Translations under genes and position numbers: made by a program
DNA from: an uncultured Pelagibacteraceae bacterium
GTDB taxonomy: Bacteria > Pseudomonadota > Alphaproteobacteria > Pelagibacterales > AG-422-B15
Direction of reading: 5' to 3'
NCBI GenBank assembly: GCA_902619105.1
Contig: CACNCV010000001.1
Location: forward strand, 1 to 64,000
DNA: 64,000 nt
In this document: piece after piece, positions 52,503 through 64,000 of the stretch
Layout of the letters: each line of letters begins with the position of its first letter
Position numbering within the stretch: the first letter of the stretch is position 1
The notes under the pieces: generated by a model
The model's database searches: none
What the model saw: only the letters and a program-made list of their open reading frames with translations
What the model was told of the DNA's origin: nothing

Positions 52503-53273
52503 GTGAGAATTCATCAACAGAAAAAATTAGAATTTCTATTTAAAAAGCTATTCGGCTTTTCAGAGCCTTATTTATTAAAGCGAAGAGCAAAAAGATTTTT
52601 AAGAAAAAATACTGAAAAAGAAATAAAACTTTTAGAGAAATTAGTAGATCATTCAAAAGCTTCTATTGATATAGGTGTTTATAGAGGAGTATATTCTTAT
52701 TTTTTATCACACTTATCTGAATACGTTTATGCTTTTGAGGCAAATCCACTTTTACATTCAAAATTAGTGAAAGGTTTTCAAAATAAAAAAAATATCAAAA
52801 TAGAAAATATGGCAGTTTCTTCAGAAAGTGGTGAAACCGAACTCAGAGTACCTATTAGGGACATAAAAGCCAATTTCGATTATGAAGAGAAGTATAAGTT
52901 AGGCACTGCTACAATTCATAAAACCAATAATTTAAATAATGAAAAATTTGAGACTATAAAATCTATAAATAAAATTTCATTGGATGAGTATAACTTTAAA
53001 CATCAAATTGGTTTTTTAAAAATCGATGTTGAGGGACATGAATTGGATATTTTACGTGGCGCAAAAAAATTTATCTCAAAAAATATGCCAACAATGTTAA
53101 TTGAAATTGAGGAGCGCCACTCTGGTGTTCGGCCTGATATTGCAATTAATGAAATAAAACAATTTGGATACGATTGCTTTTTTGTTGATGATAATTTTGG
53201 TCTACAGCTTGTTCAAAACCCTGTAGAACTAATAAATAACAACTTTATTTTTATTCCATACAAAAAAAATTAA
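52503..53273 (+). CDS. FkbM-family methyltransferase
   Basis: A 256-aa SAM-dependent methyltransferase of the FkbM type. SIDIGVYRGVYSYFLSHLSEYVYAFEANP is the SAM-binding region (motif I is DIGVYRG rather than the common DVGANIG). The FLKIDVEGHELDILRGA strand is the FkbM signature, followed by MLIEIEERHS. The start is a GTG at 52503, only 13 bases after the tRNA, and no in-frame ATG is available early. FkbM enzymes methylate sugars or polyketides; the substrate here is unknown. A second FkbM gene lies at 55153. Confidence 0.82.
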   Translation: MRIHQQKKLEFLFKKLFGFSEPYLLKRRAKRFLRKNTEKEIKLLEKLVDHSKASIDIGVYRGVYSYFLSHLSEYVYAFEANPLLHSKLVKGFQNKKNIKIENMAVSSESGETELRVPIRDIKANFDYEEKYKLGTATIHKTNNLNNEKFETIKSINKISLDEYNFKHQIGFLKIDVEGHELDILRGAKKFISKNMPTMLIEIEERHSGVRPDIAINEIKQFGYDCFFVDDNFGLQLVQNPVELINNNFIFIPYKKN

Positions 53274-54653: not shown

Positions 54654-55144
54654 TCAAAAAATATCTTCACCTAGTTTCTTCCTCTAAATCCCAAATTATC
54701 ATATTTTTACTACTTAATATCTGTGGTCTAGTTTTTCTTTTTCTTCCACACAACATTTTTGCAAATATGCTCGATCTTGAGCTTTATTACGGAAAAGAGA
54801 ATGTTGTCAGAAATTTCAATGCAATAGGTTCTAATGGTCGAAGTGTCTATGTTCTCTCCTCACTTATACTGGATACACTTTATCCTATTTTATATACTTC
54901 ATTAATTCTTGGGGCTTACGTCAAATTATTCAAAAGTCCAGGAGTAATTTTATATATACCATTAATAGCTTTTAGCTTTGATATCTTAGAAAACCTTCAG
55001 ATTACGAGATTAATTTTAAACTTTCCAAATGTAAACGAAACACACGTGTCTCTGGCTAGCACAGCTACTTCATTTAAGTGGATTGCTATTTTAGTAACTA
55101 TTTCAGTTTTAATTTATGGAATAATAAAAAAAAGAAAGAAATAG
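54650..55144 (+). CDS. Four-helix membrane protein, function unknown
   Basis: A 164-aa protein with four predicted transmembrane helices (about residues 17-38, 66-90, 98-118 and 140-158). The FDILENLQITRLIL segment lies in the third, a motif I have seen in unannotated bacterial membrane proteins. The C-terminal KKRKK puts the tail in the cytoplasm by the positive-inside rule. No function can be given. It overlaps the transporter gene upstream, so is probably co-expressed. Confidence 0.7.
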   Translation: MIKKYLHLVSSSKSQIIIFLLLNICGLVFLFLPHNIFANMLDLELYYGKENVVRNFNAIGSNGRSVYVLSSLILDTLYPILYTSLILGAYVKLFKSPGVILYIPLIAFSFDILENLQITRLILNFPNVNETHVSLASTATSFKWIAILVTISVLIYGIIKKRKK

Positions 55145-55152
55145 ATTTCTCA

Positions 55153-55902
55153 ATGTTTAAAAAACAAATCCAGAAGTTACGAAAAAGTTTTTTAAGACGA
55201 TTTTTATTTTTAACAAATAAAGAGAAATTGTTATTTAAACTAAATGATATTAAACTTAACCTTGATATAAGAGACTCAATCGACCGTGAAATTTATTTTA
55301 CTAATCGCTATGAGGAAGAACAAATAAAACTCTTAATAGATAGTATTAAAAAATTTAAAATTACACATTTTATTGATGTTGGTGCAAATATTGGAATTTA
55401 TGCATTAAACATTGCAAAGAATTTTCCAAATATAAAAATAGATGCTTTTGAGCCGCACAAAGGGGCCTTTGAGAGAATGAAAGCAAACATTCATCAAAAT
55501 GGTTTTTCTCAAATTATTCAATCTCATAATTTGGCTTTATCAGTCGAGAACAAAAATGGTTATTTGCAAGCTAGTACAAGATTTGGCACTTATCAGTCTG
55601 GTGGTGCCAGCATTTCTCCTGAAGGGGAGATGAAAATTTCACAAGTGCGAGGGGATGATTTAATTAAAGATGTAGATAGTTTCATTGCTATAAAAATAGA
55701 TGTTGAGGGTTTTGAATTGTCTGTACTGCAAGGTATTGAAAACTTAATTAAAAATAATAAAATCTTCTTACAAATAGAAATTTTTGATGAAAAGCTGAGT
55801 GAGACTTCAAAATTTCTAGAAGACTTTAATTTCAAATTAATTGAGAAGGGTACGTTCACTCATCAGGATACAGTAAAGGATTACTTCTATATTAATTTTT
55901 AA
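55153..55902 (+). CDS. FkbM-family methyltransferase (second copy)
   Basis: A 249-aa methyltransferase with the usual FkbM elements: the SAM motif FIDVGANIGIYALNIAKNFP, DAFEPHKGAFERMKANIHQNG, and AIKIDVEGFELSVLQGIENL. The N-terminal ~40 residues are basic and helical (KQIQKLRKSFLRRFLF). The ATG at 55153 is chosen; the frame is open back to 55078, but that part overlaps the membrane-protein gene. It is not a recent duplicate of the gene at 52503: only the shared motifs align. Confidence 0.85.
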   Translation: MFKKQIQKLRKSFLRRFLFLTNKEKLLFKLNDIKLNLDIRDSIDREIYFTNRYEEEQIKLLIDSIKKFKITHFIDVGANIGIYALNIAKNFPNIKIDAFEPHKGAFERMKANIHQNGFSQIIQSHNLALSVENKNGYLQASTRFGTYQSGGASISPEGEMKISQVRGDDLIKDVDSFIAIKIDVEGFELSVLQGIENLIKNNKIFLQIEIFDEKLSETSKFLEDFNFKLIEKGTFTHQDTVKDYFYINF

Positions 55903-59547: not shown

Positions 59548-60171
59548 ATGAATCAAAAAAACAAATCTAATCATCCAAAAATAGTTTTCAGTTTCTTTAT
59601 TGTTCTTATTTTCTTTTTGCTCATGTTGAGTTTTACAGCAATTGCTGAAACAAAATCTAAAGGGTGGGAAGTATGGAATGATGATAAAAATGAATACATA
59701 TACATAGATAAGTTTGGATCTATTTCACAAGCAGATTTAATGGCTTTAACATTGAAGCGTGACGATTGTGATACGATAAAAGCAAATATTTACATTACAA
59801 GTTTTGGCCTTCCAATTGCTGAAAACGGAAGAAGATTTAATGTAGAAATTACAGAGACGGACTATGAAGATAATTCGGAAGAATATAAAAACGAAGTTTA
59901 TATAAGCTACTCTGAAATGCATCATGGCAATATTGTCTATGTTTTATCCTTTGATGATGAATGGAAAACTCAAGATTGGATTAATCGACTTGATGAATTT
60001 GGACCCTACTACTTCCACTTAGAACTCTCTGAGCATACTGAAGAAGAATTAGAACCATCTATATATTTTGAACATACTGCAAACCTATGGGATATGGGTG
60101 ACCTTCAAAAAATATTGGTTAATGAGTATCGAAATTGCCGATTTAAAGTTAACGAAAACGAATCTGTTTGA
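59548..60171 (+). CDS. Exported protein of unknown function (A)
   Basis: A 207-aa protein with an N-terminal membrane or signal segment (IVFSFFIVLIFFLLMLSFTAIAE, residues about 11-33) and an acidic, aromatic-rich mature part of about 175 residues. Two cysteines (in KRDDCDTIKA and YRNCRFKV) at opposite ends could pair. I recognise no family; the alternation of hydrophobic residues suggests beta structure, such as an inhibitor or lipocalin-sized domain. The ATG has a GAAAGGA ribosome-binding site. It is followed by a second unknown exported protein of similar size. Confidence 0.68.
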   Translation: MNQKNKSNHPKIVFSFFIVLIFFLLMLSFTAIAETKSKGWEVWNDDKNEYIYIDKFGSISQADLMALTLKRDDCDTIKANIYITSFGLPIAENGRRFNVEITETDYEDNSEEYKNEVYISYSEMHHGNIVYVLSFDDEWKTQDWINRLDEFGPYYFHLELSEHTEEELEPSIYFEHTANLWDMGDLQKILVNEYRNCRFKVNENESV

Positions 60172-60245: not shown

Positions 60246-60824
60246 ATGATAAATAAAAATCCCATTAGTTTTCTACTTCTCTTTGCTTTACTTTTATTTT
60301 TTAATACTACAATATTAATTGCCCAAGATAAAAATGACTTTCCATATTTTTGTGATCTTTATATCAGTTACTATCCTGGATTTGATGGACAATCACACGA
60401 AGAATTTCATAAAATCAGCAATTCGGTAAGAGCTAAGACTGTAATCTTTCATGGAGAACATCCATCGCACGGCCCGTTTGAGCAACTGGGAGTAAAACTC
60501 ATGGCTGATGTTTGTTATAAAAATGAAAACACAGGTCAGGTATATGTTGAGGATCCCGATGATATATGGATAAAGCACTCAAATATAAATGTTAAAAAAC
60601 ATCAATACTCCCTTACAGATTTTATTTTAATATTCCTTGATGATAATAAAACAAATGAAGAAAATGATGAATGTAAAGATAAATGGTGGACTTCTTTTGA
60701 AGAAGATAAAAGAGTCATAATTAAAGTTGCAGATATTTGGCAAGGAACGACCGCCCATTACTCCACAGCTTATGCTATCTCACCCGAGGACATCATGATC
60801 AATGGAAAGTGGATTTGTTCTTAA
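60246..60824 (+). CDS. Exported protein of unknown function (B)
   Basis: A 192-aa protein with a signal peptide (PISFLLLFALLLFFNTTILIAQ) and a mature domain rich in Asp, His, Tyr and Trp. It has four cysteines (PYFCDLYISY, DVCYKNE, NDECKDKWW, KWICS), spaced as if for two disulfides. No recognised family. It does not align with protein A at 59548, yet the two are neighbours of like size and topology and probably share a function or a transcript. Confidence 0.68.
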   Translation: MINKNPISFLLLFALLLFFNTTILIAQDKNDFPYFCDLYISYYPGFDGQSHEEFHKISNSVRAKTVIFHGEHPSHGPFEQLGVKLMADVCYKNENTGQVYVEDPDDIWIKHSNINVKKHQYSLTDFILIFLDDNKTNEENDECKDKWWTSFEEDKRVIIKVADIWQGTTAHYSTAYAISPEDIMINGKWICS

Positions 60825-60951: not shown

Positions 60952-62742
60952 CTAATTATTAAAGTGATTTTTAATATAAGTATAAATTTCTTGTCCTTTT
61001 AGTTCGTCTGTAGCTACACTCTCTCTGACATAAAACTTATCTTCAGTGAATATTGGTTCTTTAGATTTTTCACACTCAATCAATATGATGTCTTTTCCAT
61101 CAATATTAATAATCCGAGTACTGTATAAGTCATAATTGCCAGCTCCTAATTTTGCTTTAAATTTATTTTTCATATGATTTAAGAACTTATCATTACTCTT
61201 CTTGTGCAGCTTTTCTACTTCTTGTTCAATACCTAAGATTTCCCCATTATCATTAACACCTATTAAAAGTTTCCCACCTTCACTGTTAAAAAAGCCGGCA
61301 AGAGTTTTTATGCATCCTTGCTGAAGATATTCACCTTGTTCCTTTTTAGCTACATCCCAGCCAAATGTTTCTTTAAATTCTAAAGTTTGGCTCTCACCCC
61401 ATTTCCTTATGAGGCTTTTAATTTTGTCAGCTTCAGTTAATTTTCCTAAAGCATCAATTATTGAGTCTAGTCTATCTATGTCTTCTTTTGATGTTGGATT
61501 CAACAGTAAATTTTTCTGAAATAATCCAAACTCTGAATATGCTTGAGAGATTTTCTTAACCGTTTCTAATATTTTAATTTGTTCATTTATATTAGGTAGT
61601 GGTACTTGAATTTTTGTTAGATTAGATTTGATAATTTTTGAAATCAGAGAGCCAGTCTTTATTGAATTAAGAAGGATTTTGCCTGTTTCACTATTAAGAT
61701 AAGCTACTAAGTATTCAGGCTCGACTTTCTCCTGAATAACATTAACTTGAAAAATATTTTGTGATTTAAGTATTTCTTTATCAAATGGCAAGCTTCTACA
61801 ATCTTGAGTTCCTAAAGCTGGTATATAAATTGAGTTTTCTTTATGAATAAATTCCTTTTCGAATACACCTTGTCTAATTTCATTACTTATTTCATCAAGA
61901 AAGACGTGATCATACTTATTGTAACTCGTTTCAATGCTTTTCATGTCATATAAACCGTTTATTAACTCAAACGATTGGAACTCACTAAGTTCCTTGTGAA
62001 TTCCATGCCGTAAATCATATTCTATATTTTCTCCTAATCTTTTATTATTAGTTTCACTACTTTGACTCTTCGATATTCTAAAACTAGATACATTCTGATT
62101 TACTATCTCTTGCGAAACATGTTGCATTTGATCGTCATGTGGGTAAATTTCACTAAATTCTGCAAAATAAGACTGATTGTGTATTTTTTTATCTACAAAA
62201 ATTATAACTCCATCTATTCCGGTAATTGGCTCTCCAAATCCTTTAGGTAATTTAATGATTGAATTTATTGAGTATCCTTTCTCTCCAATCATATTTTGCA
62301 AGTTGTCGATTTTATTTTTATAAAAATTTGGGTAGTAAAATATACCCAATCCTGAATCGTTTATTAAGTCTACGCTGTCAAAGATAAAATTATTATCTGA
62401 CTGAATACCATTTTTTTTTAATCCCCAAGGAAAAAACTTTATTAAAAGATCCCATTTCGTTTTTCTGTAGAGTTCTAAATCATCTTCAACTTCAATCAAA
62501 TCAAAATCTATATTATGAAGAAGAACTTCAGGTATGAATAAATGGGCATAATTTAATAATAGTTTTGATTTGGGTTTCTTTATTTCAATTAGTTTTTTAA
62601 AAAATTGATAGAGTAATCTGTGTGCATCAAATCCATATTTATAGGTATGATAAAATAGTTCCTTAGGATCCGAATATTGTTTTTGTTTATCAATTATATT
62701 TTCTTTTAATCTTTCTAAGTAAAATAAATTTAATTCTTTCAT
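60952..62742 (-). CDS. Type I RM-like fusion: methyltransferase-like remnant, HsdS-type recognition domain, AlbA_2 domain
   Basis: A 596-aa multidomain protein. Residues about 60-190 resemble the back half of an HsdM/N6-adenine methyltransferase (KWDLLIKFFPWGLKKNG at 96-112 where NPPF motif IV would be, IKLPKGFGEPITGIDGVII at 163-181), but no SAM motif or NPPF is seen. Residues about 220-405 look like one HsdS target-recognition domain, ending with LTKIQVPLPNINEQIKIL. Residues about 448-580 are an AlbA_2 (Schlafen-type) domain: SQTLEFKET, IKTLAGFFNSEGGKLLIGVN and DGKDIILIECEKSKEPIF. It lies 20 bases after an EcoEI-type hsdR, clearly one operon. Probably a DNA-recognition subunit; methylation activity seems unlikely. 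Confidence 0.7.
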   Translation of the reverse strand: MKELNLFYLERLKENIIDKQKQYSDPKELFYHTYKYGFDAHRLLYQFFKKLIEIKKPKSKLLLNYAHLFIPEVLLHNIDFDLIEVEDDLELYRKTKWDLLIKFFPWGLKKNGIQSDNNFIFDSVDLINDSGLGIFYYPNFYKNKIDNLQNMIGEKGYSINSIIKLPKGFGEPITGIDGVIIFVDKKIHNQSYFAEFSEIYPHDDQMQHVSQEIVNQNVSSFRISKSQSSETNNKRLGENIEYDLRHGIHKELSEFQSFELINGLYDMKSIETSYNKYDHVFLDEISNEIRQGVFEKEFIHKENSIYIPALGTQDCRSLPFDKEILKSQNIFQVNVIQEKVEPEYLVAYLNSETGKILLNSIKTGSLISKIIKSNLTKIQVPLPNINEQIKILETVKKISQAYSEFGLFQKNLLLNPTSKEDIDRLDSIIDALGKLTEADKIKSLIRKWGESQTLEFKETFGWDVAKKEQGEYLQQGCIKTLAGFFNSEGGKLLIGVNDNGEILGIEQEVEKLHKKSNDKFLNHMKNKFKAKLGAGNYDLYSTRIINIDGKDIILIECEKSKEPIFTEDKFYVRESVATDELKGQEIYTYIKNHFNN

Positions 62743-62762
62743 AGTTACTAAAAGTTTATAAT

Positions 62763-64000
62763 TTAATATAAATACCTCTGAAAATTTATAAAACTTTCCT
62801 TTATGTCTTCAGCATTCCCCATTTGAACTTGAGCGTCATGGATACTTTTATATTTAATTATCAATAATTCACTCAAACGGTCCAGATCAAGCTCTTCAAT
62901 ACCTGACTCAACATATTTGCCTAAGACAAAATCAATGAACTCTTTGTGTTCAGGATTTAAATTATCTTTCATTAATTCTTCTGATTGTTCAACTCTCTGT
63001 GTTCTTGAAATAGGTTTCTTTGTGTAGGCAATATACTCTAATACATCATATATATCACTGTCTTCTGCTTCTATAAGAGATTGTATAGACCTCAAATCAC
63101 TCAGAGTGAAGCCGTTCTCCTTAAGTTTCTTTAAAAGTTCATTTCTGGTAATTGGGGAGCGCCATAGTTCTCTTAATTCTTCTTCACTTTTAAGTATGTT
63201 CGGTAATGTAATAGTATTAAATAATTTTTTAATAAACTCTTCAGCTGTTACTGGTTGGCCTTGAAAATAAAAAAGAGATGTGGACATAGATTTAATTGTA
63301 AGTTCTTTTCCTTCAGCCAGTTTGATTACTATTTTTTCTTTAGGCTCTTGGGGTTCTGGATCTTCTCCTGGATCATCAATTAGTCCTTGATCTGGTTCTC
63401 GATCATCGCCAGGTTTTGTGCCAGTCTCGTCTTCTGGAATTGGATCTCCATCCCACTCAGGATCGGAAAAATTAGCTGAAGCACCTACAAAATCAACAAC
63501 TGTGAAATAGAATTTATCCTCAAATAGCCTTGTGCCTCTGCCTATGATTTGTTTGAATTCAATCATATTGTTAACAGGTCTCATTAATACGATGTTGCGA
63601 ATATTAAGCGCGTCCACACCTGTGCTTAGTTTTTGACTGGTTGTTAAGATTGTTGGTAAAGTTTTTTCATTATCTTGGAACTGTCTAAGATGTGTATCAC
63701 CTGTTTCAGTATCTTTAGAAGTTACTCTGACACAATAATCAGCAGGAGGATTAACTGATAATTGATTAATTAAATCTCTAACCATTCCTGCATGGGCAAT
63801 ACTTGCACAAAAAACGAGTGTTTTTTCTTTTGTATTTATACTGTCCAACATTAGTTGAACCCGTTTTTTTTCTCTCTCTTCAATAACAATTTTTTTATTA
63901 AAATCCTTCTCTTTAAATACTTCGCCTTCTTCAAGTTGTTCCTCACCCGATAAGACTTCATCATCACCTGTATATACATACTCATCCATTGTTGTTTGAA
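62763..64000 (-). CDS. hsdR: Type I restriction enzyme HsdR, EcoEI family (3' part, start outside window)
   Basis: The frame is open to the right window edge, so the true start lies beyond it; the ATG at 63989 is internal. Visible is the second RecA-like helicase lobe: EKTLVFCASIAHAGMVRDLI, ILTTSQKLSTGVDALNIRNI (motif V) and IEFKQIIGRGTRLFE (motif VI), then FSDPEWDG. An acidic Pro-rich linker (PGDDREPDQGLIDDPGEDPE) follows, and last the EcoEI_R_C domain of about 170 residues. The nuclease and DEAD parts must lie outside. It is a strong match to the translocating restriction subunit of EcoEI-type systems. Confidence 0.92.
   Translation of the reverse strand, partial: QTTMDEYVYTGDDEVLSGEEQLEEGEVFKEKDFNKKIVIEEREKKRVQLMLDSINTKEKTLVFCASIAHAGMVRDLINQLSVNPPADYCVRVTSKDTETGDTHLRQFQDNEKTLPTILTTSQKLSTGVDALNIRNIVLMRPVNNMIEFKQIIGRGTRLFEDKFYFTVVDFVGASANFSDPEWDGDPIPEDETGTKPGDDREPDQGLIDDPGEDPEPQEPKEKIVIKLAEGKELTIKSMSTSLFYFQGQPVTAEEFIKKLFNTITLPNILKSEEELRELWRSPITRNELLKKLKENGFTLSDLRSIQSLIEAEDSDIYDVLEYIAYTKKPISRTQRVEQSEELMKDNLNPEHKEFIDFVLGKYVESGIEELDLDRLSELLIIKYKSIHDAQVQMGNAEDIKESFINFQRYLY

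Follow-up and report, generated by a model that had tools for sequence, protein, structure and literature searches.

A putative Schlafen-type RNase domain joined to a degenerate methyltransferase-like domain and a single recognition domain, encoded behind a complete type I restriction operon

Several animal Schlafens are antiviral RNases; in Schlafens, two lobes joined inside one chain form the cleft for RNA. SLFN13 needs three acids for full tRNA cleavage (PMC5862951), and two matching acids of SAMD9L are needed for its antiviral, AlbA_2-dependent block of translation (PMC11221667). SLFN5 keeps the triad, yet tested tRNA was left uncut, an example of the fold binding with no cleavage (PMC8789055). 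A recent preprint, cited by PMC12839542, is reported to show bacterial Schlafens active against phages, and in BREX and related loci Schlafen RNases are suspected to be backup effectors (PMC12839542). A translation-blocking nuclease of another kind, PrrC, is encoded together with the type IC enzyme EcoPrrI and is freed on inhibition of that enzyme by a phage peptide (PMC12707154). We found no account, in the open-licence literature, of the architecture of the fusion protein described here.

The fusion gene lies near the right end of the window, the whole stretch of 64,000 nucleotides that was analysed. The gene and the parts of its product are as follows.

60952..62742, minus strand: accessory fusion gene, 596 aa, consisting of a pseudo-methyltransferase, one target recognition domain (TRD) and an AlbA_2/Schlafen domain
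62056..62742, minus strand: N-terminal domain, aa 1-229, a contracted putative methyltransferase remnant
61528..62055, minus strand: single HsdS-type TRD, aa 230-405 (Pfam match aa 258-400)
61408..61527, minus strand: conserved linker, aa 406-445
60955..61407, minus strand: AlbA_2/Schlafen domain, aa 446-596

The 596-aa frame is intact, with no internal stops, and the gene is present in a single copy in its own genome. A sequence-only reading had proposed a chain of methyltransferase-like, HsdS-like and AlbA_2 parts; Pfam agrees with it for the AlbA_2 and HsdS-like parts, and profile comparisons, more weakly, for the methyltransferase-like part. Two plus-strand neighbours with signal-peptide-like starts, 59548-60171 (207 aa) and 60246-60824 (192 aa), are convergent with the fusion gene. 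Farther to the left, two look-alikes of FkbM-type methyltransferases (52503-53273 and 55078-55902) lie within 3 kb, judged on sequence alone.

The operon was read beyond the right edge of the window, along the contig of 467 kb. The finding of hsdM, hsdS and the rest of hsdR there settles the earlier question of the operon context of the fusion gene.

62763..64000 in the window, minus strand: 3' part of hsdR (EcoAI/EcoEI type); the gene runs to contig position 65099
65096-66304 of the contig: hsdS, 402 aa, two recognition domains
66301-67755 of the contig: hsdM, 484 aa, N6_Mtase and HsdM_N domains, NPPF present

The full hsdR product has 778 aa and contains the ResIII, SWI2_SNF2, HSDR_N and EcoEI_R_C domains. 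The start and stop codons of hsdM, hsdS and hsdR overlap, and the gene order is hsdM-hsdS-hsdR followed by the fusion gene, whose ATG at 62742 is separated from the hsdR stop at 62763 by 20 bases on the same strand. The fusion gene is the fourth and last gene of a complete EcoAI/EcoEI-type type I operon. The spacing of 20 bases given in the sequence-only reading stands, while its 'HsdR fragment' is ruled out, since the full gene continues outside the window and was merely cut by the window edge. Its caveat that a genuine hsdM could lie to the right proved justified: extension of the contig reveals hsdM with NPPF, together with hsdS. The main proposal of that reading, a subunit that takes the place of HsdM and recognises DNA for a nuclease independent of methylation, is not supported: hsdM is present in the operon, the complete hsdM-hsdS-hsdR set lies directly upstream and the gene is missing from sister operons. 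Its alternative, in which the protein is an accessory to a defence operon, gains support from the position of the gene behind that set, and we have little doubt that the product is an accessory protein of the pseudo-methyltransferase/TRD/AlbA_2 kind.

Close hsdM relatives (81-82% identity) were found in three other genomes among the 197 genomes of the same taxonomic order that were searched. The three sister operons (L034, L035 and L036) occupy different chromosomal places; their hsdR genes are 69-84% identical to that of the window operon, and hsdS is only about 25% alike. Similar hsdM and hsdR, diverged hsdS and varied locations mark the operon as portable, with exchange of its specificity gene. 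Each sister operon ends at hsdR, and a counterpart of the fusion gene is absent from all three. The G+C content of the fusion gene is 28.4%, versus 35-36% for hsdM, hsdS and hsdR. This absence and the lower G+C content suggest that the fusion gene was acquired separately and that the core enzyme can dispense with it.

The C-terminal domain is matched by PF04326 (SLFN_AlbA_2) at aa 450-575 with an E-value of 4.5e-20 (72.8 bits versus a cut-off of 25.3). A profile built from eight domains of this AlbA_2 subfamily matches SLFN11, SLFN13, SLFN12 and SLFN14 in PDB, with best E-values from 2e-9 to 5e-7. The SLFN13 structure is the rat entry 5yd0, deposited as Schlafen 8, and catalytic residues were assigned by counting on the 5yd0 alignment. 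Residues E450, E455, K457 and D498 correspond to E205, E210, K212 and D248 of SLFN13, and the E-E-D carboxylate triad with the lysine is complete in the window protein. Both glutamates and the lysine are invariant in all eight domains; at the position of the third acid, six have D and two have N, and one of these two belongs to a full-length member. Placement of the third acid at the NSEGG/NTDGG position was rejected, as the 5yd0 alignment puts it in the following GVxD loop. We infer that the domain is a putative Schlafen-type endoribonuclease. There is one AlbA_2 domain per chain, and with only one lobe dimerisation would be needed. An AlphaFold model from the single sequence reached a pLDDT of 34.

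The same AlbA_2 subfamily occurs in other settings. In one genome (G1053) it forms the C-terminal part, aa 1025-1154, of a 1170-aa HsdR (L027:12747-16259, minus strand), and the operon also holds hsdM, hsdS and a 199-aa PD-T4-4_B-like gene. In another (G952, L021:4948-12140) a fusion of GmrSD_N (DUF262) with AlbA_2 is encoded between hsdS and hsdR, and its stop codon overlaps the hsdR start. Stand-alone AlbA_2 relatives on plasmids have efflux, metal and transposon genes as neighbours, which indicates that the domain is not specific to defence.

The TRD is matched by PF01420 (Methylase_S) at aa 258-400 with an E-value of 5.6e-6, above the curated cut-off and in a single copy, and many type I S-subunit profiles of NCBIfam and PADLOC agree with this assignment. 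The fusion protein has one recognition domain, whereas the operon's own HsdS has two; the TRD is 28.7% identical to that HsdS over 87 aa (E 5e-5). Half-S proteins with a single recognition domain act as dimers. The best NCBIfam match of the TRD is MAD5, and its 45.1 bits are far under the equivalog cut-off of 400 bits; membership in MADS was rejected. Among phage records, the window protein has one match, to the TRD only.

The N-terminal domain taken alone (aa 1-229) matches no Pfam model. Its profile aligns with the part of N6-adenine methyltransferases that begins at motif IV, their second half, with an E-value of 0.008 against PDB 2f8l. The PADLOC profile mad2 matches the domain in two relatives, and hhalign comparison with HsdM gives an E-value of 2e-4, yet a probability of only 46%. 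In the 2f8l, mad2 and HsdM matches alike, the same stretch falls on this second half, and this concordance hints at a methyltransferase-derived domain.

Relatives with the same domain order were sought, together with their neighbours, in about 1,900 genomes and 72,556 plasmids, as the sequence-only reading had suggested. Three further full-length proteins were found, each beside defence or candidate-defence genes; the family is rare, and few members are known. The first relative (G1034, same phylum) has 552 aa and adjoins an Hhe helicase and a Gabija pair, with no hsd genes over the 20 kb that were read and no matches in phage records. The Hhe helicase gene (L019:4157-10173) comes in two overlapping frames of 1709 and 318 aa, which indicates that it is frameshifted or misassembled. 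The second relative (G441, same class) also has 552 aa and adjoins a PDC-S31 candidate and a transposase-like gene, with no hsd gene beside it. The third, 783 aa and annotated as 'N-6 DNA methylase', is encoded on the P. nigrifaciens plasmid NZ_CP011038 directly upstream of an hsdM-hsdS-AlbA_2/HATPase-hsdR set that is unrelated to the hsd set of the window. The plasmid region L006:4983-19692 contains a Mrr_cat-like gene, the fusion, hsdM, hsdS, a second AlbA_2/HATPase protein and hsdR; beyond hsdR lies a CBASS-like locus with SAVED, JAB, ThiF and nucleotidyltransferase genes. Thus, hsd genes adjoin only two of the four full-length members.

Two single-protein scans of genome contigs yielded no relatives; overly strict patterns are the probable cause. 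Of five queries against viral contigs, four had no match and the fifth found only an HTH-AlbA_2 protein. The predicted viral contig IMGVR_UViG_2840619991_000002 encodes (L037:7599-9191) a protein of 530 aa that combines an apparent N-terminal HTH with an AlbA_2 part (EFKETFGW).

The methyltransferase part is degenerate in all four full-length members, with the methyltransferase motifs lost. In the window protein, motif I (GxG/DPxxGSG, for SAM) and NPPF/Y were looked for and neither was found, and this statement of the sequence-only reading extends to all four members. The position of motif IV, NPPF in HsdM, reads KFFPWG in the window protein and VDIPLG, GDLPFG and SFPPI in the three relatives. 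The window protein and the two 552-aa members are contracted, and the stretch ahead of motif IV is too short in them to hold a normal SAM half. The P. nigrifaciens fusion represents an intermediate form with a nearly full-length methylase fold, which agrees with descent from a methyltransferase: it matches N6_Mtase with an E-value of 3.7e-55, is 24% identical to its own HsdM, and has DPSFCIG where that HsdM has DPTCGSG. The full RNase triad is kept in two of the three further members. Compared with the two 552-aa relatives, the window protein is 22% identical in the N-terminal domain, 25-26% in the TRD, 40-45% in the linker and 42-43% in the AlbA_2 domain. A conserved effector with a diverging sensor would be a pattern expected of a defence protein. 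We consider a defence role highly likely.

The likeness of the TRD to the operon's own HsdS, and the frequent occurrence of such recognition domains in S subunits, would also suit a modulator of the type I enzyme that has no RNase activity. The M- and S-like parts of such a protein would join HsdM or HsdS and add a half-S TRD, and the AlbA_2 domain would only bind nucleic acid or multimerise, altering specificity or restraining HsdR; SLFN5 provides the precedent for binding without cutting (PMC8789055). This explanation is possible but doubtful, as the RNase triad and the lysine are complete in the window protein, the conserved part of the family is the effector end and not the docking end, and one member has no hsd genes over the 20 kb that were read. 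The latter member and the one in G441, both with no adjoining hsd gene, speak for an independent one-gene system of defence islands, in which the TRD reads DNA and triggers AlbA_2 alone and the hsd operon is a chance neighbour. The low G+C content and the absence from sister operons fit such a system as well. We nevertheless consider it unlikely, given that the gene lies on the same strand merely 20 bases behind hsdR, that a second, unrelated hsd operon also has the fusion as its neighbour, and that the same AlbA_2 subfamily is joined to HsdR in G1053.

A functionless, decaying remnant of an M-S fusion could explain the degenerate methyltransferase part and the single copy known in the taxonomic order. 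The sequence-only reading had named a complete hsdM-hsdS pair upstream of a decayed single case as grounds against its own proposal; the pair is indeed there, but the gene is intact, and its domain order recurs in three other, distant genomes or plasmids, which led us to reject the single-case reading. With a frame of 596 aa free of stops and with the C-terminal active-site residues kept, decay, already disfavoured, is very improbable.

The model that we favour, an RNase guardian of the restriction enzyme, combines a sensor mimicking the M.S core with a Schlafen-type RNase as the backup effector, similar to PrrC/EcoPrrI; in its full form its chances are about even. The gene would descend from a fused M-S protein, and the methyltransferase part, with its SAM and catalytic motifs lost, may serve as a docking or mimic domain. 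The single recognition domain could bind DNA, probably as a half-S-type homodimer, which would bring two AlbA_2 lobes together. The protein would be silent during normal restriction and might be set off by target DNA that is foreign or lacks modification, or by a phage protein that puts the M.S core out of action. Once triggered, the AlbA_2 domains might pair and cut tRNA or other RNA, stopping growth as in the PrrC/EcoPrrI case. We further speculate, with little confidence, that the protein is an integrated-decoy immune sensor: the dead M and half-S parts, imitating HsdM.HsdS, would be bound by unmodified sites or by anti-restriction proteins of phages, either DNA mimics or M.S binders, and this would switch on the Schlafen RNase of the same chain. 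Such a decoy would convert a restriction-enzyme core into a trigger of cell shutdown. In the fusion protein, an AlbA_2 domain with RNase residues is attached to a domain that ancestrally reads DNA sequence; if the RNase-guardian model is true, sequence-specific restriction is tied to RNA-level cell shutdown within one chain, as a simple sensor-effector pair.

Among known systems, PrrC/EcoPrrI resembles the fusion gene in that a predicted translation-blocking nuclease is an extra gene with a type I operon (PMC12707154). PrrC is an ABC-ATPase/HEPN protein embedded in its locus, whereas the fusion has an M-S-like sensor and an AlbA_2/Schlafen nuclease fold, and its regulation by the restriction enzyme is proposed here by analogy. 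The BREX-type SLFN-histidine kinase-wHTH proteins share with it an AlbA_2/Schlafen domain suspected to be a backup effector beside a methylation-based defence (PMC12839542). They are separate proteins with C-terminal HATPase and wHTH, as is the P. nigrifaciens neighbour, while the AlbA_2 domain of the fusion is C-terminal to the pseudo-methyltransferase and TRD. Type I HsdM/HsdS and single-chain M-S enzymes show the same order of an M-like and then an S-like part, with one TRD; in contrast to these enzymes, the fusion has no SAM motif, no NPPF and only half of the methyltransferase fold, and AlbA_2 is added. The MADS system is similar in the MAD5 match of the TRD and the MAD2 match of the N-terminal domain in two relatives, but the score is 45 bits against a cut-off of 400 and no MADS gene set is present. 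The GmrSD_N (DUF262)-AlbA_2 fusions have the same C-terminal AlbA_2 subfamily behind GmrSD_N instead of M-TRD. Finally, SLFN11/12/13/14 and SAMD9/9L are linked to the fusion by significant profile matches to SLFN structures and by aligned catalytic residues, and differ from it in that the fusion has a single AlbA_2 lobe and bacterial sensor domains.
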